A stretch of 64,000 nt of DNA from assembly GCF_025175675.1 (NCBI RefSeq), contig NZ_JANIOA010000004.1, positions 1 through 64,000 of the forward strand, read 5' to 3'. Below, one piece after another: positions 24,770 through 62,959 of this stretch (within the stretch, counting starts at the first letter, position 1; the number at the start of each line of letters is the position of its first letter). The notes beneath the pieces are model-generated. The model made no database searches. It was not told the origin of the DNA and saw only the letters and a program-made list of their open reading frames with translations. Both the position numbers and the translations under genes were made by a program. This stretch comes from Sedimenticola hydrogenitrophicus. GTDB taxonomy: Bacteria; Pseudomonadota; Gammaproteobacteria; Chromatiales; Chromatiaceae.

Positions 24770-25567
24770 TTATGTGCATGCCGCGATGGCCGATGTCAGT
24801 GCCTTGCGAATATCGTGATCATCGGTGATCGGTAGAACCAGGGCGATGTCACAAGCCTCGGCCAGGGGTATGCCGCGGTTGATCAGCTGGCCGACATGGA
24901 TAAGCATCCGCGTCGAGGCCCCCTCATCCAGGCCATGCCCCTTCAGGTTGCGGGACTTTTCTGCAAGCTTGACCAGGGTGGCGGCAATCTTCTCGTCAAC
25001 ACCCGATTCGTGAGCGATGATGCGGGCTTCGACATCGAGCGCCGGGTAACCGAAGTCGACGGCCCCAAAACGCTGCTTGGTCGACTCCTTCAGATCCTTG
25101 AGCACACTTTGATAGCCGGGATTGTAGGAGATTACCATCTGGAAATCCGGGTGGGCCTTGAGTACCTCGTTTTTCTTCTCCAGCGGCAACATGCGCCGGT
25201 CGTCGGTTAACGAGTGAATGACCACGGTGGTGTCCTGACGAGCCTCGACGATCTCATCCAGATAACAGATCGCACCATGCCGAACTGCCAGGGTGAGCGG
25301 TCCGTCATGCCAGACGGTTCCGTCGGCATCCAGCAGGTAGCGCCCCACCAGATCCGATGCCGTCATATCCTCGTGGCAGGCAACACTGACCAGCGGCTTG
25401 TTAAGCCGCCAGGCCATATGCTCCACAAAGCGTGTCTTGCCACAGCCGGTCGGCCCCTTGAGCATGATCGGCATACGATCGGCATAGGCGGCTTCAAAAT
25501 GTGCCACCTCCCGGCCCGTGGCATGGTAATAGGGTTCGTCGGTGATCAGGTAATCTTTCAAAGACAT
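24770..25567 (-). CDS. MoxR-family AAA+ ATPase (NorQ/CbbQ-like)
   Basis: A 265-residue AAA+ ATPase. Walker A is GPTGCGKT near residue 39-46, Walker B is [10 protein letters not shown] near 95, sensor 1 lies in [10 protein letters not shown], and the arginine-finger/sensor-2 region follows, as in NorQ, CbbQ and NirQ. These proteins form hexamers that work with a VWA partner to activate a client enzyme. Here the partner is encoded directly downstream and the upstream gene is the amidase amiE. Pseudomonas amide operons also carry an ATPase gene, amiB, so a similar role is likely, though whether it is orthologous cannot be decided from the sequence alone. Confidence 0.92.
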
Positions 25568-25681: not shown

Positions 25682-26722
25682 CTAACGGTGGGAACTTGTC
25701 TTCTGGTTGGGGATGCCCTCTATCGGGCACTCTTCGGTGCCGACGGTTTGCCGCGTGATGGCCTCCACCTCCTTGCGTGTTGCCTCGGGATCGTTGACCC
25801 ATTTTTTGTAGAAGTCGAAGGGGCATTCAGCAACACCGGTATCGCCGTCGCCGGATTTTATCTGGCCGGTATAACCGCGATGCAACAGTTTGAACAGATG
25901 ATTCTGCGATTGACCATTCTTGCGTGCATCGCGAATCATGGAGACGGAGAGCTGGGCATACTGGATACCCATCTCCTCTTCGGCACAGGCACCCAGGGTC
26001 CGGCCATCAAAGCCAATGATGGATGAGTAACCAAAGTAGGAGTAGACACCATCGAAGCCGGTGGCATTGGCGACCGCCACATAGCAGTTGTTGGACCAGG
26101 CCATCGCCTTGGCCATGGTGACCTGCTGCTCCTTTGCCGGGTACATGTAACCCTGACAGCGGACAATCAGCTCGGCACCCTTCATGGCGCAATCACGCCA
26201 GATCTCCGGGTAGTTACCGTCATCACAGATGATCAGACTGATCTTCATACCCTTGGGGCCTTCGTTGACATAGGTGCAGTTGCCCGGATACCAGCCTTCA
26301 ATCGGCACCCAGGGCATGATCTTGCGGTATTTCTGAACGATCTCGCCCTGATCGTTCATCAGGATCAGGGTATTGTAGGGCGCCTTGTTCGGGTGCTCTT
26401 CATGCCGTTCACCGGTCAGGGAGAAGACACCCCATACACCGGCTTCACGGCAGGCCTCGGAGAAGATCTCCGTCTCGGCACCGGGACACTGCGAAGCGGT
26501 TTCATACATCTCCTTTTCGTCATACATGATCCCGTGGGTGCTGTATTCCGGGAAGATAACCAGGTCCATTCCCGGTAGACCCACTTTCATGCCCTTGATC
26601 ATGTCGGCTATCTTGTGACAATTTTCCAGAACCTCGTCTCTGGTATGCAAGCGAGGCATCTTGTAGTTGACGACGGCAACTCCGACAGTATCGTTACTAC
26701 TGGTTATATCTCCATGAAACAT
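25682..26722 (-). CDS. amiE: aliphatic amidase AmiE
   Basis: A 346-residue nitrilase-superfamily amidase that hydrolyses short-chain aliphatic amides (acetamide, propionamide) to the carboxylate and ammonia. It closely follows Pseudomonas AmiE from the start ([19 protein letters not shown]). The catalytic triad is intact at the canonical numbers: Glu59 in FPEYS, Lys134 in KYRKIMPW and Cys166 in [10 protein letters not shown]. The C-terminus carries the AmiE-specific HRGYTG...[12 protein letters not shown] segment. One visible difference is Val139 where I recall Cys in Pseudomonas AmiE. It follows the ABC transporter genes, showing that the operon imports and cleaves amides rather than urea. 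Confidence 0.96.
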
Positions 26723-26760: not shown

Positions 26761-27456
26761 TTAAACGGTCATATGCCGATGCACCACCTCATCGGTCAGT
26801 TCACCGATGCCACCCTCTGCCGCGACCTGCCCCTTTTCCAGAACCATGAACTGGTTCGAGGCACGACGGACAAAGGGAATATTCTGTTCCACCAGAATGA
26901 TGGTCAGTTTCATCTCCCGGTTGAGCATCAGGATCGCCTGCTCAATCTGCTCCACGATATTCGGCTGTATACCCTCGGTAGGTTCGTCCAAAAGAAGCGC
27001 CTTGGGATCCGCCGCCAGGGCCCGGGCGATGGCGAGTTGCTGCTGTTGTCCGCCCGACAGATTGCCGGCCCGTCGATGGAGATTCTGTTTAAGGTAGGGA
27101 AATATCTCGAGTGCCTGCTCGGGAAGTTCGCGGGATTTCCCTTTACGGGCAAAGGTGCCCATGAGGATATTTTCCCTTACCGTGAATTTGGGCAGGATGC
27201 CGCGTCCCTGGGGGACATAGGCGATACCCCGTTTTGCCCGGGCATGGGTCGACAAGCCACCGATCTCCTCACCGGCAAAAAACAATCCGCCACTGGAGCG
27301 GTCGGTGAGCCCCAGGATGGTCCGCATCAGGGTTGTCTTACCAACGCCATTGCGTCCCAGGACACTGACCAGTTCACCTTCGCCTACGGAGAAATTGACC
27401 TTCTGCAGTACCGGACTGTTGCCATAGAAGGAGTCGACCTGGTTCATTTTAAGCAT
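26761..27456 (-). CDS. urtE: amide/urea ABC transporter ATPase, UrtE type
   Basis: A 231-residue branched-chain-type ABC ATPase of the UrtE/LivF kind. Walker A is GRNGVGKTT near residue 34, the ABC signature is [15 protein letters not shown] and Walker B is [18 protein letters not shown] eight bases upstream of the ATG at 27456 sets the start, overlapping the end of the preceding ATPase gene by eight bases. With UrtD it forms the nucleotide-binding pair of the importer. Given amiE downstream and no urease, the cargo is probably a short-chain amide; FmdDEF of methylotrophs is a precedent for such use. Confidence 0.9.
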
Positions 27457-28198
27457 GGGAGATTCCTCCACTACCCAGGTAGGCTTCCTGTACCCTGGGA
27501 TTAATCTCGATCTCACCCACTGTGCCTTCGGCCAGCAGCTTGCCCTGATGCAGCACCGTAATGATCTCCGCGATTTCGCGTACGAAGGTCATGTCATGCT
27601 CGACGACCACCAGGGTGTGGTGGCCCTTCAGTGAATTGAAAATCGCAGCGGTTTTCTGGGTCTCGCCGATGGTCATGCCGGCGGTGGGTTCATCCATCAG
27701 GATGATTTTCGAATCCTGGATGATCAACATGCTGATCTCCAACCACTGGGTTTCGCCGTGCGATAGAAATGATGCCTGGGTGTCCAGCCTGTCCCGAAGT
27801 CCGGTCAGCTCCACCACCTCTTCAATGCGCTCGCGCCCGGCAGAGCCGGGCCAGCTGAAGATGTTGTGCCGGATGGATGTCTGCTTGCTGTAGGCCAGTT
27901 GCAGATTCTCTCGAACGGTCAGTTCAGAGAATATACTGGGGACCTGAAACTTACGGCCGATTCCCGCCCTGGCACGGTGGTGTTCATGCTTGTCGGTGAT
28001 ATCCACCCCATCCAGCAGGATGGATCCGGCGGACTGTCGGGTCTTGCCGGATATGATATCCAGGGTGGTTGATTTTCCAGCGCCGTTGGCGCCTATCAGA
28101 CATCGCAACTCCCCCTGGTTGACCGAGAAGTCGAGACCATCGACCGCCTTGAATCCATCAAAGCTGACCTCCAGCCCTTTTGTCTCAAGATATGCCAT
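27449..28198 (-). CDS. urtD: amide/urea ABC transporter ATPase, UrtD type
   Basis: A 249-residue ABC ATPase of the UrtD/LivG kind. Walker A is GANGAGKST near 37, the signature is the UrtD-typical LSHGETQWLEISMLI (the SHGE variant), and Walker B is IILMDEPTAGM. The UrtD-like RAGIGRKFQVPSIF segment near 80 is also present. Its ATG shares one base with the stop of the permease gene urtC, and its 3' end overlaps urtE, so the transporter genes are tightly coupled. Confidence 0.92.
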   Translation of the reverse strand: MAYLETKGLEVSFDGFKAVDGLDFSVNQGELRCLIGANGAGKSTTLDIISGKTRQSAGSILLDGVDITDKHEHHRARAGIGRKFQVPSIFSELTVRENLQLAYSKQTSIRHNIFSWPGSAGRERIEEVVELTGLRDRLDTQASFLSHGETQWLEISMLIIQDSKIILMDEPTAGMTIGETQKTAAIFNSLKGHHTLVVVEHDMTFVREIAEIITVLHQGKLLAEGTVGEIEINPRVQEAYLGSGGISHA

Positions 28199-29304
28199 CA
28201 GCTAATCCCCCTGGCGCGTTTGGTAGAGGAGAGCACCTGCACCTGGACCCTGTCGGTGCGCTTACGTCGCCAGCGAATCAGTTCGCCAATGCTGATCAGC
28301 CCTTTAGGCAAAAACAGCACGATAAGGACGAAGAAGCCGCCGAGAATCAGCTGCCATGTCTCCAGGAAGTTTTCAGAAAGGCTGCCCTGCGCGGCGTTCA
28401 CCAGAATCGCACCGAGGGTGGCAGCCAACAGGGAACCCCGACCACCTACGGCACACCAGATCACCATCGACAGACTGAGCGATACCCCGACAAATGTGGG
28501 TGAGGCAAATTCCAGCACCATCGCGTACAGCATGCCGGCCAACCCGGCAATCCCTGCCGACAGGGCAAAGGCAAGTATCTGGTAGGCCGATACGTCATAG
28601 CCCAGGAAACGGACCCGATCGGGATCGTTGCGGATTGCCTGCAGTATCAACCCCGCCTTGGTGTGGGTAAAAATCCCCGTGCCTAGCAGACAGACCACCA
28701 GGGATCCGGCGGAGAGATAGTAAAAGGTCTTGCTGTAGGGATCGAATTCTATGCCGCCAATGGTCAGCCAGGCGAGATCGGTAATCCCGTTAAAACCACC
28801 GGTGTAGCGTTGCTGATCAATCAGCAAGAGATTGATGATCACCAACATGGCAAGGGTAATGATGGCGACAAATACGCCGGCGATGCGAGCCCGGAACACA
28901 AACCAGCCGAGCATTACCGCCAGCAGCACAGGGATGCCGATGCCGGCCGTGATGGCGAGATAGCTCCAGTGGAACGGTTCCCAGAACCAGGGTAGCTGTT
29001 CAACATTGTTCCAGACCATAAAATCCGGCAGCCCGCCGGTGCCGGTATGCACCGGGACTGTCTGCAGTTTCAGGTACATCGCCATGCAGTAGGCGCCGAG
29101 ACCAAAAAAGGCGGCATGTCCCAGGTTGAGAATACCGGTATAGCCCCAGGCGAGACTCAGCCCCAGTGTTGCCAACCCCAGGATCAAATAGCGGGAAAAC
29201 TTGTTCAGGGTGTAGGCGTCGTCAATCAATAACGGCAGCAGCAACACAGCCGCCGAAAAGATGGTGTAGCCAATAAGTGTCCGAAGAGATTTGCTGTTCA
29301 TCAT
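28198..29304 (-). CDS. urtC: amide/urea ABC transporter permease, UrtC type
   Basis: A 368-residue integral membrane protein of the LivM/UrtC family with about ten predicted hydrophobic spans. It carries the family segments ILGLATLGLSLAWGYTG near residue 40, NLGHAAFFGLGAYCMAMYL near 60 and the loop AIRNDPDRVRFLGYDV near 240. The N-terminus MMNSKSLRTLIGY has no cleavable signal. It pairs with UrtB to form the membrane channel of the importer. The start is nine bases after urtB. Confidence 0.92.
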   Translation of the reverse strand: MMNSKSLRTLIGYTIFSAAVLLLPLLIDDAYTLNKFSRYLILGLATLGLSLAWGYTGILNLGHAAFFGLGAYCMAMYLKLQTVPVHTGTGGLPDFMVWNNVEQLPWFWEPFHWSYLAITAGIGIPVLLAVMLGWFVFRARIAGVFVAIITLAMLVIINLLLIDQQRYTGGFNGITDLAWLTIGGIEFDPYSKTFYYLSAGSLVVCLLGTGIFTHTKAGLILQAIRNDPDRVRFLGYDVSAYQILAFALSAGIAGLAGMLYAMVLEFASPTFVGVSLSLSMVIWCAVGGRGSLLAATLGAILVNAAQGSLSENFLETWQLILGGFFVLIVLFLPKGLISIGELIRWRRKRTDRVQVQVLSSTKRARGIS

Positions 29305-29313
29305 ACGGTTTGC

Positions 29314-30183
29314 CTATTTTCTGACCAGTTGTGAGAACAGACCCTGTGGCCTGAATCGGATCAGCATCACCACGGCAATAAATACAATCACCTTGGCAAG
29401 GGTGTCATTGAGGAGGTAGGCCATGCCTGCGGTAACCTCGCCCAGAATGCCGGATGCGGCCGCGGTGCCCGCCACACTCCCCACGCCACCCAGTACCACG
29501 ACCATGAAGGCGTCCACCACGTAGTGGGTGCCCATGTCAGGAGACACGCTCTTGATCGGTGCCACCAGGGAGCCGGCCACACCTGCCAGACCGGCACCGA
29601 AGGCGAAGGTCAGTCCGAAAATCCGCTGACTGTCAATGCCGGAGCATTCGGCCATTTCCCGGTTTTGGGTGATGGCCCTGAGCTTGGTACCGTATTCGGT
29701 CCGCATCAGTAAAAGCCAGGTCAGGAGAATCAACAGACCGGTCACCAGCAGAATAAACAGTCGATAGACAGAGAAGTTGATGCCAAGCAGATCGACACTG
29801 CGGCTAAGACTTTCGGGCAGCTCGACATAACGCAGTTCGGCGCCCGCTGTCAGGCGCACCAACTGTTGAAGCATGATCCCGATACCCCAAGTCGCGAGGA
29901 TGGTGTCCAGGGGTCGGTGATAGAGATGGCGCACGATGCCGCGCTCAATCACCCAGCCGATACTGCCTACCATCAGGAATACCAGTACCAGACTTGGGAT
30001 CAGGCCAATGCCGGCATATTGCTGTAGAAACCAGGTGGCATAGGCCCCCAGCATGACAAACTCACCATGGGCCAGGTTGATGACGCCCATGGATCCATAG
30101 ATGATTGCCAGCCCCAGTGCGACCAATAACAGAATGGACGCGATACTGAGTCCGGTAAAAATTTGAGAAATGAAGACTTCCAT
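29314..30183 (-). CDS. urtB: amide/urea ABC transporter permease, UrtB type
   Basis: A 289-residue permease of the LivH/UrtB family. It shows GLAIIYGSMGVINLAHGEFVMLGAYAT near residue 30 and RAITQNREMAECSGIDSQRIF near 180, typical of this class. GGAGG seven bases upstream of the ATG at 30183 decides the start; an extension upstream is possible but lacks a ribosome-binding site. It lies 123 bases after the binding-protein gene with no gene between. Confidence 0.92.
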   Translation of the reverse strand: MEVFISQIFTGLSIASILLLVALGLAIIYGSMGVINLAHGEFVMLGAYATWFLQQYAGIGLIPSLVLVFLMVGSIGWVIERGIVRHLYHRPLDTILATWGIGIMLQQLVRLTAGAELRYVELPESLSRSVDLLGINFSVYRLFILLVTGLLILLTWLLLMRTEYGTKLRAITQNREMAECSGIDSQRIFGLTFAFGAGLAGVAGSLVAPIKSVSPDMGTHYVVDAFMVVVLGGVGSVAGTAAASGILGEVTAGMAYLLNDTLAKVIVFIAVVMLIRFRPQGLFSQLVRK

Positions 30184-30306
30184 GGACAAACCTCCGATTG
30201 ACACACAATCAAAATGCAGCTAGCCGTCCCCCCGACAATCCCGCCCCACTCACATTGCCATGCGACGATGCGAGTGGGGCCAGGAGGGGTGGAATGGGTG
30301 TGTGAA

Positions 30307-31548
30307 TCAGGCGCCCTTCAGCCCGCTGGCGGTACAGCTCTGCCCCTGGTACGCCCAGTAGGGTAGTGGCCGGACTCGCTCTGCGGATTGCTTGATCACC
30401 TTGAACTGGCCGTTGGATTGACAGACAGCAATCTTTGGCCACAGGTTTGTGTGTAGGTTTTCACCATCGATGCCGACCAGCCCCTGGGGTGCCATTAGCT
30501 CTTCGCCCTGAACCGCATCTCGGATATTCTCGGGACTGATGTCACTGGCGGCGAGTTTCGCCACCGCCTGTTTGAACAGGTGAACCTGAAAATAGGCCGG
30601 TTCCGAGACAAAATGGGTCACCGAGTCGGCGCCGTAGAGACGCTTGTAACTCTCTACAAATTTTTCATTTTCGGGAGATTCATGAACCATGAAGTAGGGC
30701 GCCGAAGTGAAATGTCCGGCACCGTACTCACCGCCCATTGCGGCAATCTCGACCTCGGAGGTGGTAAGGCTCGCCATGGGCATTTTTTCCGGGTCAAATC
30801 CAGCCGACTTGTATTGACGGTGCAGGGCGATGACTGAATCACCGACCACCGTGGAGAAGATTACATCCGGTTTGGTATCCCGGATCTTGTTGAGAACCGA
30901 GCTGAACTCCGAGTGTCCTAAAGGAACGTATTCTTCGCCGACGACCTCGCCACCCAATTGCTCCAGGAGAATCTTGCAGACGTTGTTCTCTTCCTTCGGA
31001 TAGATGTAGTTCGATCCGACCAAGAAGAAGCGTTTGCCAAAATTCTCTGTCAGCCAGGGGATGAAATCCTTCTGTTGCTGATTGGGTGTCGCCCCGGTGT
31101 AGATCACGTTTTTCGAGCACTCACGACCCTCATACAGCGTTGGATACCAATAGAGATTTCGACGCTTCTCGAATACCGGCAGTACCGCCTTGCGGCTGGC
31201 CGATGTGTAGGAACCGAAAACACTCACGCAACGATCGCCCATGACCAGCTTACGCGCTTTATCGGAGAAGGTTGCCGGGTCGGAAGCCGGGTCTTCGACG
31301 ATGGGTGTGATCTTCATTCCGTTGATTCCACCCTGGGCATTGATCTCTTCAATCGCCATCAGTGTGGCGTTATGCAGCGACTTCTCTACCACGGCTGTGG
31401 TGCCGGTCAGTGAATAGAGAACGCCAACCTTGATTTCGCCACCTGACGCGTAGGCCTGGCCCAGGTCCTTGACCCATATATGGGGGAAACCCACAGCCGC
31501 AGCGGCGCCTGCCGCTCCCTTAAGAAATGATCTTCTGTTTATAGCCAT
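30307..31548 (-). CDS. urtA: amide/urea ABC transporter substrate-binding protein, UrtA type, Tat-exported
   Basis: A 413-residue periplasmic binding protein. The N-terminus MAINRRSFLKGAAGAAAAVGF is a twin-arginine signal. The mature part follows the UrtA/AmiC periplasmic-binding fold (KVGVLYSLTGTTAVVEKS, YPTLYEGRECSKNVIYTGA, GSNYIYPKEENN). It is clearly paralogous to the AmiC sensor encoded two genes upstream, with long shared strings such as KAVLPV, YPTLYEG and PDVIFSTVVG. The ATG at 31548 is preferred because an upstream in-frame start would fall inside the terminator. Cargo is inferred to be an amide from the operon context. Confidence 0.93.
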   Translation of the reverse strand: MAINRRSFLKGAAGAAAAVGFPHIWVKDLGQAYASGGEIKVGVLYSLTGTTAVVEKSLHNATLMAIEEINAQGGINGMKITPIVEDPASDPATFSDKARKLVMGDRCVSVFGSYTSASRKAVLPVFEKRRNLYWYPTLYEGRECSKNVIYTGATPNQQQKDFIPWLTENFGKRFFLVGSNYIYPKEENNVCKILLEQLGGEVVGEEYVPLGHSEFSSVLNKIRDTKPDVIFSTVVGDSVIALHRQYKSAGFDPEKMPMASLTTSEVEIAAMGGEYGAGHFTSAPYFMVHESPENEKFVESYKRLYGADSVTHFVSEPAYFQVHLFKQAVAKLAASDISPENIRDAVQGEELMAPQGLVGIDGENLHTNLWPKIAVCQSNGQFKVIKQSAERVRPLPYWAYQGQSCTASGLKGA

Positions 31549-31569
31549 CTTATACTCTCTCCTCAGACT

Positions 31570-31610
31570 AAAAAAAAACCCCAACACCGGTTACCAAGCC
31601 GGTGTTGGGG
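31570..31610 (-). terminator. leader terminator T2 upstream of urtA
   Basis: On the minus strand CCCCAACACCGG and CCGGTGTTGGGG are perfect 12-base arms around an eight-base loop, followed by nine T residues. It lies between amiR and urtA, and its 5' arm overlaps the 3' arm of hairpin 31608-31621, so the two structures would exclude each other. Confidence 0.88.
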
Positions 31611-31644
31611 CTTCTTTGCCCTGGACTCTCGCTGGACGTAGCGA
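31608..31644 (-). promoter_or_regulatory. second ANTAR-type hairpin pair in the urtA leader
   Basis: Upstream hairpin at 31629-31644 is TCGCT-ACGTCC-AGCGA (loop with A1 but T4). The downstream hairpin at 31608-31621 is GGGC-AAAGAA-GCCC, a hexaloop with A1 and G4 as required for ANTAR recognition. Its 3' arm merges into terminator T2. One hairpin is canonical and one deviates. Confidence 0.6.
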
Positions 31645-31651
31645 AAAATCC

Positions 31652-31689
31652 AAAAAAAAGCCCTCCCAAGTCTAATGCTTGGTGAGGGC
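31652..31689 (-). terminator. leader terminator T1 downstream of amiR
   Basis: Minus-strand GCCCTC-A-CCAAG pairs with CTTGG-GAGGGC across a seven-base loop, followed by eight T residues. It lies about 50 bases after the amiR stop, ahead of a second terminator, so urtA and all later genes are shielded by two intrinsic terminators in series. Confidence 0.85.
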
Positions 31690-31726
31690 CTTGTTGCCTT
31701 GCGGAATACTAGAGCTCCCTTGCTCT
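31687..31726 (-). promoter_or_regulatory. first ANTAR-type hairpin pair in the urtA leader
   Basis: The upstream hairpin at 31711-31726 is AGAGC-AAGGGA-GCTCT, a five-base-pair stem with a six-base loop that has A1 and G4. The downstream candidate at 31687-31698 is GGC-AACAAG-GCC, weaker and with A rather than G at loop position 4; its 3' arm overlaps the 5' arm of terminator T1. It begins about 15 bases after the amiR stop codon. Confidence 0.6.
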
Positions 31727-31742
31727 GTTTCCTGGAAATATT

Positions 31743-32351
31743 CTAATCAGATTTCTGGAGCGATTGCAACAACTCATTCGCATTGATGATGGAGACCGCC
31801 ATCTCCTCGGTCGTTACACGCTTGGACATGGCACGGTCCCGTATCAGCTTGTAGGCTTCTTTTTCACTGATATTCAGGGTATCCATTAACATGGATTTTG
31901 CTTGATTAATTTTATTGATACTCATCATCTTACGCTGAAGCTTGTGCGCCTTTTCACGTTGCGCCTTCTCGCGTAGCCACACCTGGCGGGCTGTAACCAG
32001 ATTGGCCATAACGCCAAATGATCGTATCGGTCGCGTTATCACGGCATCGAAGTTGATATCAATAACCGCCTGTAACACCGTCGGCGCCTCATAGGAGACC
32101 AAGGCGATCAGGGTGGGTTTCAGAGGGCCATCATCGGAGCAGACTCTTCGCAGGTCATCCAGCGCATCCTCCTGTATGGTAATAAAAATTACATCGGCCA
32201 TCGCCGGCAGCGGGTCCGGCAGCGGCCATAGGGCCTCAATCTGACAGCCGATCCGATCGAGTTGCCGGATTAATATCTCACCCTCCTGGTCATGGGGATG
32301 CACGACCAAAACCCTTAGATCGCGTAGAGTTTTTAATACATTGGCGGCCAT
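31743..32351 (-). CDS. amiR: AmiR-type ANTAR transcription antitermination regulator
   Basis: A 202-residue regulator like Pseudomonas AmiR. Residues 1-125 form a pseudo-receiver domain (LRVLVVHPHDQEGEILIRQLDRIGC) that lacks the usual phosphorylatable Asp arrangement; a coiled-coil helix follows (QREKAHKLQRKMMSINKINQAK), and the C-terminal ANTAR domain (about 145-198) has the typical INQAKSMLMDTLNISEKEAYKLIRDRAM pattern. In the amidase system AmiR is held by AmiC until an amide binds, then stabilises antiterminator hairpins. Its ATG shares a base with the amiC stop (TAATG). Three target-like leaders are visible in the window. Confidence 0.95.
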   Translation of the reverse strand: MAANVLKTLRDLRVLVVHPHDQEGEILIRQLDRIGCQIEALWPLPDPLPAMADVIFITIQEDALDDLRRVCSDDGPLKPTLIALVSYEAPTVLQAVIDINFDAVITRPIRSFGVMANLVTARQVWLREKAQREKAHKLQRKMMSINKINQAKSMLMDTLNISEKEAYKLIRDRAMSKRVTTEEMAVSIINANELLQSLQKSD

Positions 32352-33550
32352 TATTTTAATTTACTTCGGTTTGCCATATGAGGAGCAGTCTGCATAATCT
32401 TGAACTGCCTGAGACTCCAATCATTAACCTGTGGAGAGACCAGGTAGGGATCCGGTTTAACCGCCGAGGAGGTTGTCGCCACGACGACGAAGCGGCCGTT
32501 CGCGTCAACGCGCGCAATGCGCGGCCAAAGATAGGTGTGACCGTTATCCGGATCGATCCTGACGCGACCCTGTGGTGCTGAATACTCACCCCCCATAAGC
32601 TCGTTACGCAATACTTCTGTCCCAATGTCACCGCTCTTTTTCAGTGCTTCGGCAAACAGATGTACCTGAAAATAGGCGGCTTCCGCACCACTGGTTACCG
32701 GCTCATCGGCGCCAAATCTTGCTCTGAAGCGGGCAACAAAACACTCATTTTCTTCTGTCTCAATACCCTCGAAATAAGGTGCCGAGGTATAGTGTCCACA
32801 GGCCACCTCAGCACCCATCTCGCGTATATCTGCTTCATTTGTGGTCAGGCTGGCTATCGGGATCATATCAGAATTCAAACCAGCCCGAGCATAGGCGCGG
32901 TAGAAATGGGCTGTCGCCTGGCCGACAACGGTGGAGAAGATTACATCAGGCTGGTTCTTGACAATGTCCACAACAACGGATTCAAAATCCTCCTCGACCG
33001 CGTCCAGCGGCAAGTAACGCTCATCGATAATTTCACCGCCACTCTGACGCACCAGGTCGCGCATGATGCGGTTGGACTCGTAAGGGTAGATGTAGTTGGA
33101 GCCGACAAAATAAAACCGCTTGCCGAAAGACTCCATGAGAAAGTGCGCCAATTGCACACTGTTCTGATTCGGTGCCGCCCCGGTATAGATGACATTCGGC
33201 GAGAATTCAAATCCTTCATACAGCGTCGGATAGAATAGCAACGCGTTGTGCCGTTCAACAACCGGAAGAACGGCTTTCCGGGTGCTGGACATATAACAGC
33301 CGAAAATGACGTTAACCTTGTCCACATTCGTCAGTTGCAGTGCTAAGTCACGGAATCGGTACGGCTCGGAGGCGGGATCATAGATCACAGGCTCAATCTG
33401 ACGGCCCAGCACGCCGCCTGCACTATTGAGCTCCTCAATGGCCAGCAGGGTGCCATTCAATTGTGTCTTTTCAATAACCGAAGTGACGCCCGTCTGAGAA
33501 AACAAGACACCAACCCTCCAGGATTGCGTCCGTTCACTGTGTCTCGGCAT
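32351..33550 (-). CDS. amiC: AmiC-type amide sensor, negative regulator of AmiR
   Basis: A 399-residue cytoplasmic periplasmic-binding-fold protein without a signal peptide, as expected for AmiC. It begins WRVGVLFSQTGVTSVIEK and shares long blocks with UrtA of the same operon and with Pseudomonas AmiC (YPTLYEGFEFSPNVIYTGA, GSNYIYPYESNR, ASLTTNEADIREMG, YFQVHLFAEAL). AmiC binds amides such as acetamide and releases AmiR. It leads the operon and lies behind an RNA leader with a terminator, so amiCR would be autoregulated. Confidence 0.93.
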   Translation of the reverse strand: MPRHSERTQSWRVGVLFSQTGVTSVIEKTQLNGTLLAIEELNSAGGVLGRQIEPVIYDPASEPYRFRDLALQLTNVDKVNVIFGCYMSSTRKAVLPVVERHNALLFYPTLYEGFEFSPNVIYTGAAPNQNSVQLAHFLMESFGKRFYFVGSNYIYPYESNRIMRDLVRQSGGEIIDERYLPLDAVEEDFESVVVDIVKNQPDVIFSTVVGQATAHFYRAYARAGLNSDMIPIASLTTNEADIREMGAEVACGHYTSAPYFEGIETEENECFVARFRARFGADEPVTSGAEAAYFQVHLFAEALKKSGDIGTEVLRNELMGGEYSAPQGRVRIDPDNGHTYLWPRIARVDANGRFVVVATTSSAVKPDPYLVSPQVNDWSLRQFKIMQTAPHMANRSKLK

Positions 33551-33577
33551 GATTCATACTCTCAATTAGGTATCCAT

Positions 33578-33611
33578 AAAAAAGGCCCCAAGGTACCTTG
33601 ACCAAGGAGCC
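33578..33611 (-). terminator. leader terminator upstream of amiC
   Basis: On the minus strand GGCTCC pairs with GGGGCC (one G-T pair), with the inner CCTTGG/CCTTGG region giving an imperfect extension, followed by six T residues. It lies 28 bases upstream of the amiC start and its 5' arm is part of the preceding hexaloop hairpin. Confidence 0.75.
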
Positions 33612-33650
33612 GCATTGCTCTACGGAAATGTATGGCGTCTCCGTTGACGC
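33607..33650 (-). promoter_or_regulatory. ANTAR dual-hexaloop leader upstream of amiC
   Basis: Two consecutive hairpins on the transcript: P1 at 33635-33650, GCGTC-AACGGA-GACGC, and P2 at 33607-33620, GAGC-AATGCG-GCTC. Both loops are six bases with A at position 1 and G at position 4, the recognition rule for ANTAR proteins. The 3' arm of P2 is also the 5' arm of the terminator, so binding of AmiR to P2 would block termination. Confidence 0.85.
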
Positions 33651-33667
33651 AAATTTCCCTAAGCCCA

Positions 33668-33696
33668 AAGATAGAGCATCAAGATTTCATTTGCAA
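33668..33696 (-). promoter_or_regulatory. sigma-70-type promoter of the amide operon
   Basis: Minus-strand TTGCAA at 33696-33691 and TATCTT at 33673-33668 are separated by 17 bases. A transcript from here would start just before the two hexaloop hairpins. Both boxes match 4 of 6 consensus positions. Confidence 0.55.
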
Positions 33697-33739
33697 CAAC
33701 CTGTCGATCCGGGATGGGCCCGCCACTGTCCGGACCTGA

Positions 33740-33957
33740 GATGCGGTTCGTTTCACGTACCGCAACTTGCTTATTCGTCGGATTATGCTGCGCTAACCCG
33801 ACAAAGCAATTGAGTCGGTACCCCGGATGGCGCCCGCGCTACGGGAACCCAACCGGCGCGCAGCCCCATGTGGGCGGAATCCAGGGCAGAGTTGTGCCGG
33901 GCTGAGCCGGCTCCCGGATTCCGCCGCCGTGGGCGCAAGCGGTTTATCCTGTTGGGG
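33740..33957. repeat. dispersed 210-base repeat, copy 2
   Basis: This segment matches 21736-21945: same GATGCGG.TCGT start, ACTTGCTTATTC.TCGGATTA, a shared GGATTCCGCCGCCGTG.GCGCA and a GCGGTTTATC end. It fills the space between the amide operon promoter and the DHC gene. Confidence 0.65.
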
Positions 33958-62683: not shown

Positions 62684-62722
62684 GTTTGAGATGGCGCGGG
62701 CCCAATCGGGGATAGCGCCCAT

Positions 62723-62755
62723 AAAAAACCCCGGCAGCATTCCCTGCTGTCGGGG
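62723..62755 (-). terminator. intrinsic terminator oriented to the minus strand
   Basis: CCCCGGCAGCA and TGCTGTCGGGG pair around a five-base loop; on the minus strand the hairpin is followed by six T residues. Its orientation does not fit the flanking plus-strand genes, so it may be a decayed element or serve antisense transcription. The rest of 62684-62959 has nothing recognisable. Confidence 0.45.
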
Positions 62756-62959
62756 CATGTCGCCGGGCTTGGTTGGCAAAGGGTTCCAGTCCATGGAATC
62801 GTCCGTGAAGTGTGTTGCCGATCCGGTGGCAGTCCGTTGTTTTGGCGACAGCTATAGATTGCCACCGTCACCGGGATTTCGTTGTGCGCTGAATCCCGGG
62901 GCTACGTAGGATAAATCTGAAGCACGGGTATGGAAGTGCGAAGTTCGAAGGGGGGAGCC

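Follow-up and report, generated by a model that had tools for sequence, protein, structure and literature searches.

The spacer between amiR and a urtA-like gene in Sedimenticola hydrogenitrophicus holds two ANTAR-type leader units in tandem, each made of two hexaloop hairpins and an intrinsic terminator. This tandem layout is real and it is conserved among relatives. We give a probability of roughly 80% to the reading that both units are ANTAR attenuators opened by AmiR upon amide and that, with a third leader ahead of amiC, they form three gates in series through which leak multiplies. Descriptions of ANTAR attenuators have them acting singly, each ahead of one gene, or distributed along an operon. 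Two of them stacked and conserved, with a third before the sensor genes, form a natural setting in which to ask how several attenuators combine. The tandem leader is a variation on ANTAR attenuation, not a new kind of system. A first-pass annotation of the window (the whole 64,000-nucleotide stretch of DNA analyzed) had proposed such a duplicated leader in an AmiC/AmiR amide operon; anatomy, conservation, covariation and the ranking of sites by a covariance model all support it.

The cluster lies on the minus strand in the order amiC, amiR, a 194-nt spacer, the urtA-like gene, urtB, urtC, urtD, urtE, the amidase gene and a gene for a CbbQ-type ATPase (Table 1). What identifies an AmiC/AmiR amide regulatory system is found here: an AmiC-type sensor and an AmiR-type pseudo-receiver-ANTAR protein clustered with an aliphatic amidase. 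The urtA-like protein matches the UrtA model at E 6.2e-122, yet falls under the curated cut-off of that model; an RBS-like GAGGAGAGAG stands ahead of its gene at 31555-31564. At E<=1e-10 this AmiR was found in its own genome alone among 55 genomes, which included that genome and eight more of the genus, and at E<=1e-20 an AmiR match occurs in 4 of 369 genomes of the class, its own included.

Table 1. The amide cluster of the window and its leaders
Feature	Positions	Strand	Description	Basis
amiC	32351..33550	-	amide-sensor protein gene	closest PDB match P. aeruginosa AmiC 1pea, E 7.6e-103; Pfam Peripla_BP_5
amiR	31743..32351	-	ANTAR antiterminator gene	Pfam AmiR_N E 9.2e-39, ANTAR E 4.1e-13; PDB AmiR 1qo0 (P. 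aeruginosa) E 5e-29
urtA-like	30307..31548	-	solute-binding protein gene, Tat signal	first gene 3' of tandem leader
urtB, urtC, urtD, urtE	26761..30204	-	transporter genes	NCBIfam UrtB, UrtC, UrtD, UrtE, each over cut-off
amiE	25682..26722	-	aliphatic amidase gene	NCBIfam PRK13286 aliphatic amidase, E 2.1e-215
CbbQ/NirQ-type AAA ATPase gene	24770..25567	-	3' side of the cluster	Pfam AAA_5 + CbbQ_C
amiC leader P1	33635..33650	-	GCGTC-AACGGA-GACGC, loop AACGGA (A1, G4)	sequence; R2 match 33578-33651
amiC leader P2	33607..33620	-	GAGC-AATGCG-GCTC, loop AATGCG (A1, G4), overlaps terminator	sequence
T0, amiC leader terminator	33578..33611	-	stem -14.1 kcal/mol, U6	sequence, stem energy
Unit 1 P1	31711..31726	-	AGAGC-AAGGGA-GCTCT, loop AAGGGA (A1, G4)	sequence
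Unit 1 P2	31687..31698	-	GGC-AACAAG-GCC, loop AACAAG (A1, A4), 3' arm overlaps T1	sequence
T1 terminator	31652..31689	-	-17.9 kcal/mol, U8	sequence, stem energy
Unit 2 P1'	31629..31644	-	TCGCT-ACGTCC-AGCGA, loop ACGTCC (A1, T4)	sequence
Unit 2 P2'	31608..31621	-	GGGC-AAAGAA-GCCC, loop AAAGAA (A1, G4), 3' arm overlaps T2	sequence
T2 terminator	31570..31610	-	-24.0 kcal/mol, U9	sequence, stem energy

All the hairpins quoted in the first-pass annotation, and both terminators between amiR and urtA, were found where it had placed them on the minus strand. In the RNA they follow one another as P1, P2, T1, P1', P2' and T2. The linkers between the paired hairpins, 12 nt in unit 1 and 7 nt in unit 2, lie inside the range of about 5-12 nt given for the E. 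faecalis eut leaders in the accessible text, and P1' begins 7 nt past the U-tract of T1. In both units P2 and the intrinsic terminator share sequence, the 3' arm of the one overlapping the 5' arm of the other (31687-31698 with T1; 31608-31621 with T2), which makes the two folds mutually exclusive. The gene for a cognate ANTAR protein, with AmiR_N and ANTAR domains, adjoins both units. The stem of T2 is more stable than that of T1 in all 15 tandem leaders computed (the window and 14 others), and the U-tract of T2 is interrupted in many relatives.

How might these gates work in series? In the known system, as far as the accessible parts of PMC3369931 describe it, AmiR gains access to the leader once AmiC has bound amide. 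By analogy, we infer the following course of events. Without amide, AmiC would keep AmiR, and the nascent RNA would form T0 ahead of amiC, followed by T1 and T2 ahead of urtA. Leak through T0 would yield a little sensor, with the transporter and amidase genes off behind two further terminators. With amide, the freed AmiR dimer would bind the hexaloops of P1 and then P2 in each unit; bound AmiR would keep the 3' arm of P2 away from the terminator stem and allow readthrough of T0, T1 and T2 into urtABCDE-amiE. The sensor genes would thus stand behind one weaker gate and the transporter and amidase genes behind three, and basal leak would multiply across all three. The unusually stringent switch proposed in the first-pass annotation would, like AmiR binding at each unit and activity of both terminators in vivo, be expected from the known ANTAR mechanism. 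More speculatively, the 7-nt distance from the T1 U-tract to P1' may allow a dimer that has opened T1 to pass to unit 2.

Could hairpins of this kind arise by chance? The folding energy of the spacer is -86 kcal/mol, whereas 200 dinucleotide shuffles give -52.8 (sd 4.16; z -7.98); the terminators account for most of the difference. With the terminators of the window fixed and the 60 nt upstream of them shuffled, a P1+P2 pair appeared in 0.3% of shuffles for unit 1 and 2.5% for unit 2. Because of the latter figure, unit 2 is a modest signal in the window sequence alone, and its case rests on conservation in relatives. There, searched blind to loop sequence in 15 tandem leaders, the P1+P2+terminator arrangement was present at 11 of the 15 first units and 12 of the 15 second units, where shuffles predict 0.14 and 0.16; the leaders share kinship, and these counts are not independent events. 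The hairpin annotation that was counted carried no loop-sequence bonus. On the strength of shuffles and conservation we reject chance hairpins. Rfam gave no match in the window at its gathering threshold, and over 31500-31800 its 19 matches at E<=10 were every one under their gathering scores.

Relatives were gathered from plasmid records, GTDB contigs and genomes, oriented, and cut from the amiR stop to the urtA start. The genomes came in samples of 369, 398, 385, 249 and 199, and the counts describe these samples; they are not a census. An AmiR match occurs in 278 plasmid records, of which 60 were covered; a close UrtA occurs in 13, of which five were used, the other eight being Roseibium or Labrenzia. 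Loci in which the gene after amiR is not urtA-like were left out of the counts.

Two terminators are present in the spacer of 16 of the 23 sampled loci of the window's UrtA clade (the window included) and absent in seven; UrtA of the other 22 loci is 62-76% identical to that of the window. Comparison of the spacer in relatives, proposed in the first-pass annotation as a way to overturn its reading, instead came out in favor of a conserved tandem layout. amiR directly precedes the leader in every one of the 16 tandem loci. A script found the terminator pair in 15 of them, the second terminator of L069 being placed by hand; it found both units complete in 10, one unit in five and none in one. 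The hairpins it missed are short or wobble-closed and visible in the alignments, except P1' of L067, where no hexaloop is formed. Rhizobium etli 8C-3, Ciceribacter thiooxidans, Labrenzia sp. THAF187b and Roseibium algicola carry the tandem leader, as does a Roseateles sp. XES5 record flagged UNVERIFIED_ORG.

The tandem is not essential for this type of operon, because the seven remaining close loci (L006, L061, L064, L065, L066, L068 and L075) show fewer than two terminators. L006 is a partial exception, described below. In L061 and L064 the script found no terminator, though one is visible by eye; in L066, L068 and L075, where BLAST located no amiR, the sequence read was the 400 nt ahead of urtA.

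Covariation was examined in both units, with L041, which is near-identical to L042, excluded from the alignments as it was from the shuffles and the loop table. The unit 1 alignment holds 14 relatives without the window, trimmed to the start of P1. In it the antiterminator fold, P1+P2, reaches 98.6% pairing, and 5 of its 10 pairs are changed on both sides; for the exclusive fold, P1+T1, the figures are 99.5% and 5 of 13. When the partners were slid, pairing fell to 33-55% and two-sided pairs to at most two. When they were shuffled, none of 500 trials reached the covariation score for either fold. The count of two-sided pairs was reached by 7 (P1+P2) and 14 (P1+T1) of 500 trials, and that of further pair types by 7 and 98 trials, respectively. 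Unit 2, in an alignment of 15 rows that includes the window with its P1' a few columns off (so that the window's P1' counts are unreliable), has 90.4% pairing, and 9 of its 19 pairs are two-sided changes. Pairing and two-sided pairs were reached in 0 of 500 shuffles and further pair types in 88; slid versions were 34-47% paired, with 2 to 6 two-sided pairs. The shuffle control leaves the relatedness of the rows in place.

A covariance model, R2, was built from unit 1 of the 14 relatives and contains no window sequence. Run unfiltered on 31400-33800 of the window (2.4 kb), it ranked unit 2 first (31573-31643, 25.8 bits, E 2.8e-6), the amiC leader second (33578-33651, 16.9 bits, E 5.8e-4) and unit 1 third (31654-31727, 13.9 bits, E 0.0035), with the following match at E 0.42; the E-values are rough, coming from a shortened calibration. 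With default filters on 26 sources (221 kb), unit 2 (E 2.6e-4) and the amiC leader (E 0.054) were found, unit 1 of the window was not found at E<=5, and three unrelated places in the window appeared at E 0.3 to 3.8. By its lowest rank, and by the missing match under default filters, unit 1 is the weakest of the window's three sites. A second model, R1, was built with unit 2 of the window and matches that unit by construction. It found the amiC leader at E 0.0017, did not find unit 1 in the window, and gave further matches in the genome (E 0.64 and 0.72). With R1 the amiC leader was narrowly outscored by an unrelated palindrome at 62.7 kb (62722-62816, E 8.6e-4); we rejected this palindrome as a leader, since it is a terminator region on the antisense strand at the 3' end of a gene that by eye is typA-like.

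These data bear on the most ordinary explanation of the spacer, namely that amiCR ends in two end-of-gene terminators, T1 and T2, standing back to back, that urtA has its own promoter, and that the hexaloops are there by chance. Tandem terminators are common at gene ends, and a sigma-70-like match lies at the end of amiR (31769-31740), in a region where 4 such matches were found and 4.3 are expected by chance. Against this, hexaloop pairs accompany both terminators in many relatives, far over the shuffles; both exclusive folds of unit 1 covary; and R2 ranks the three sites of the window ahead of all else in the region. Conservation largely refutes this explanation, and we consider it hardly credible.

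What of the loops themselves? P1 and P2' carry both A1 and G4, and P2 and P1' deviate at the fourth position. The first-pass annotation saw in this one canonical and one degenerate loop per unit, which is true of the window (A4 in P2, T4 in P1') but is no rule in the 14 relatives, counted without the window. Among these, G4 is present in 13 of 14 loops at P1, P2 and P1' alike and in 9 of 14 at P2', while A1 is present in 14 of 14 at P1, 9 of 14 at P2, 2 of 14 at P1' and 8 of 14 at P2'. The P1' loops begin with G1 in 8 of the 14 (the L067 row of P1' not being a formed hexaloop), and P2' has A4 in 5. P1 of unit 1 is the strictest loop site.

According to the portions available of two papers, A1 and G4 each mattered in vivo in E. 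faecalis, a G4-to-A change in either eutP loop lowered induction (PMC3369931), and in the EutV structure G4 stacks on Tyr164 (PMC8934654). Mapped by hand from an alignment, the EutV RNA contacts Tyr164, Met172, Lys149 and Glu160 correspond to Y167, M175, K152 and E163 in AmiR; Arg142, which the accessible text gives as another G4 contact, corresponds to Ile145. The four matching contacts count in favor of AmiR control of both units; Ile145 and the two G4-less loops of the window count against it. In the spacer of L041 and L042 (Labrenzia/Roseibium) three of the four hexaloops have A4 in place of G4, and their sequences hint that ANTAR specificity might have changed there. In two other loci, L008 and L017, the gene after amiR is by eye amidase-like; their P2 hexaloops, AATAAA and AAAAAA, stand ahead of a strong terminator and likewise have no G4. 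The loops suggest that searches requiring A1/G4 in every loop can miss real members.

The deviating loops raise the alternative that AmiR controls one unit and that the other is a decayed copy with a G4-less loop, its terminator acting as a constitutive attenuator that fixes how much sensor mRNA is made relative to transporter mRNA. P2 and P1' of the window do depart from A1/G4, unit 1 matches R2 weakly, and the second terminator is absent in 7 of the 23 close loci. Decay is nevertheless hard to square with the window's four hexaloop stems, which are all intact, or with the recurrence of G4-less loops in relatives, as with A4 in P2'. Moreover, a T2 of this strength that could not be opened would be expected nearly to silence urtA-amiE. 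We regard a decayed copy as unlikely.

A more elaborate possibility accepts both units as genuine ANTAR attenuators and assigns unit 2 to another ANTAR protein, which would make an AND gate of, for example, amide and nitrate. The genome has four ANTAR genes, and the P1' loops differ in type from those of P1, as their A1 counts and the frequent G1 of P1' illustrate. Yet amiR stands directly before the leader in each of the tandem loci, and on the window's contig no ANTAR gene other than amiR was found. This is quite improbable in our view, and control of both units by AmiR itself is the reading we prefer.

That reading includes a third gate. An ANTAR-type leader ahead of amiC, claimed in the first-pass annotation, is indeed present at 33578-33650, with P1, P2 and a terminator, and is matched by R2. 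Its linker of 14 nt lies outside the range of about 5-12 nt cited above for eut, and 14 nt is a linker length that failed in eutP in the available text of PMC3369931. In 10 of the 16 tandem loci R2 has a match no more than about 230 nt upstream of amiC: the window, L058-L060, and L081, L082, L083, L085, L086 and L088, which contain the amiC ends of L048, L067, L069, L071, L072 and L074. In L041 the match is upstream of a permease gene standing two genes before amiC. At E<=1, R2 detected no amiC leader in 4 of the 16 tandem loci (L079, L080, L084 and L087; L042 lay outside the comparison), and it detected none in four single-unit loci with amiC upstream (L089-L092).

A second group of 13 loci (L009, L010, L011, L012, L013, L014, L015, L033, L034, L037, L043, L044 and L045) has another layout: one unit, then a lone hexaloop hairpin. 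These are Ancylobacter, Rhizobium, Agrobacterium, Aminobacter, Shinella and one further genus; several are near-identical, and in L013 urtA was not located. All 13 spacers have an A1/G4 hexaloop hairpin that starts 7-13 nt beyond T1's first T-run (shuffles predict 0.24) and occupies the place of P1' in the window. In these 13 spacers no second terminator was found by script, which also missed T1 in five, or by eye. The lone hairpin may be a remnant of unit 2, a parking site for AmiR, or a feedback sponge like EutX/Rli55, which in the accessible text of PMC5821096 has ANTAR hexaloops without a terminator, as the lone hairpin does. The likeness has a limit: EutX/Rli55 is described there as a separate, riboswitch-controlled, trans-acting RNA, whereas the lone hairpin sits on the operon mRNA past T1.

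The two groups meet in the phylogeny. In the AmiR tree the window joins L006 and the second group (support 100/99), apart from the 15 other tandem loci. The UrtA tree places it among the tandem loci, in a clade with support 95/90 in which the branching at the window itself is left open. Long-branch warnings apply, among others, to L043 and L011 among UrtA and to the window and L006 among AmiR. AmiR and UrtA of the window thus fall in different clades, and therefore tandem leaders occur with both AmiR clades. The layout may be old and partly lost, may have arisen twice, or the regulator may have been exchanged. The different sets of relatives of AmiR and UrtA in the window suggest, in themselves, regulator exchange or an old split.

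Might a single AmiR dimer serve the whole chain? It would pass along P1, P2, P1' and P2' as each emerges, with the terminators multiplying repression without amide and costing little with amide. The lone hairpin of the second group would then be a remnant or minimal form of the same arrangement, either parking AmiR on the read-through mRNA as a feedback sponge or handing it to a second gate that we failed to recognize. We offer this tentatively and think it rather doubtful. If true, it would mean an ANTAR arrangement that is not composed of single, separate attenuators. In the parts of the papers available, an ANTAR dimer is described as holding P1 and P2 at once (Ramesh 2012, PMC3369931) and as moving from hexaloop to hexaloop (Walshe 2022, PMC8934654). 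The simultaneous-hold and moving models predict different readthrough for the natural constructs seen here, namely the chain of four hexaloops and the lone hexaloop past a terminator.

The operon resembles the P. aeruginosa ami operon in its AmiC and AmiR homologues, its aliphatic amidase and a dual-hexaloop leader overlapping a terminator. It differs in having the urtABCDE transporter inside and three leaders, two of them in tandem; in addition, the sensor genes come first, whereas the P. aeruginosa leader described in the available text lies before amiE in amiECBRS (PMC3369936). Like the E. faecalis eut locus (EutV), it has several ANTAR attenuators in one cluster and the P1-P2-terminator anatomy (PMC3369931, in the part accessible). 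The four eut sites stand before four different genes, eutP, eutG, eutS and eutA (PMC5821096, likewise), and the text examined describes none of the four as two units in one spacer. In E. coli bgl (BglG; PMC9499468, accessible portion), too, a regulator gene lies between antiterminator-controlled terminators, with transporter and enzyme genes behind the last. That system, as described there, belongs to the BglG and RAT families and not to the ANTAR hexaloops, and its two terminators are split by a gene rather than stacked.

The first-pass annotation was aware of no described duplicated ANTAR leader. Among the titles and abstracts turned up by full-text searches of open papers we likewise found none in tandem; the hit lists of the 2012 motif search, which like other supplementary tables and subscription papers lay outside these searches, could contain stacked sites that passed without remark. 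In the accessible text of PMC3369931, PMC8934654, PMC7496416, PMC13209695, PMC5424462, PMC3369936, PMC9499468 and PMC5821096 we met no two-unit ANTAR spacer.

One further arrangement was seen in L006, a relative of the same class. Its 579-nt spacer has two R2 matches between amiR and urtA, at 2368-2440 and 2561-2647, and at the first of these a pair of hexaloops is followed by a T-run without a clear terminator stem.
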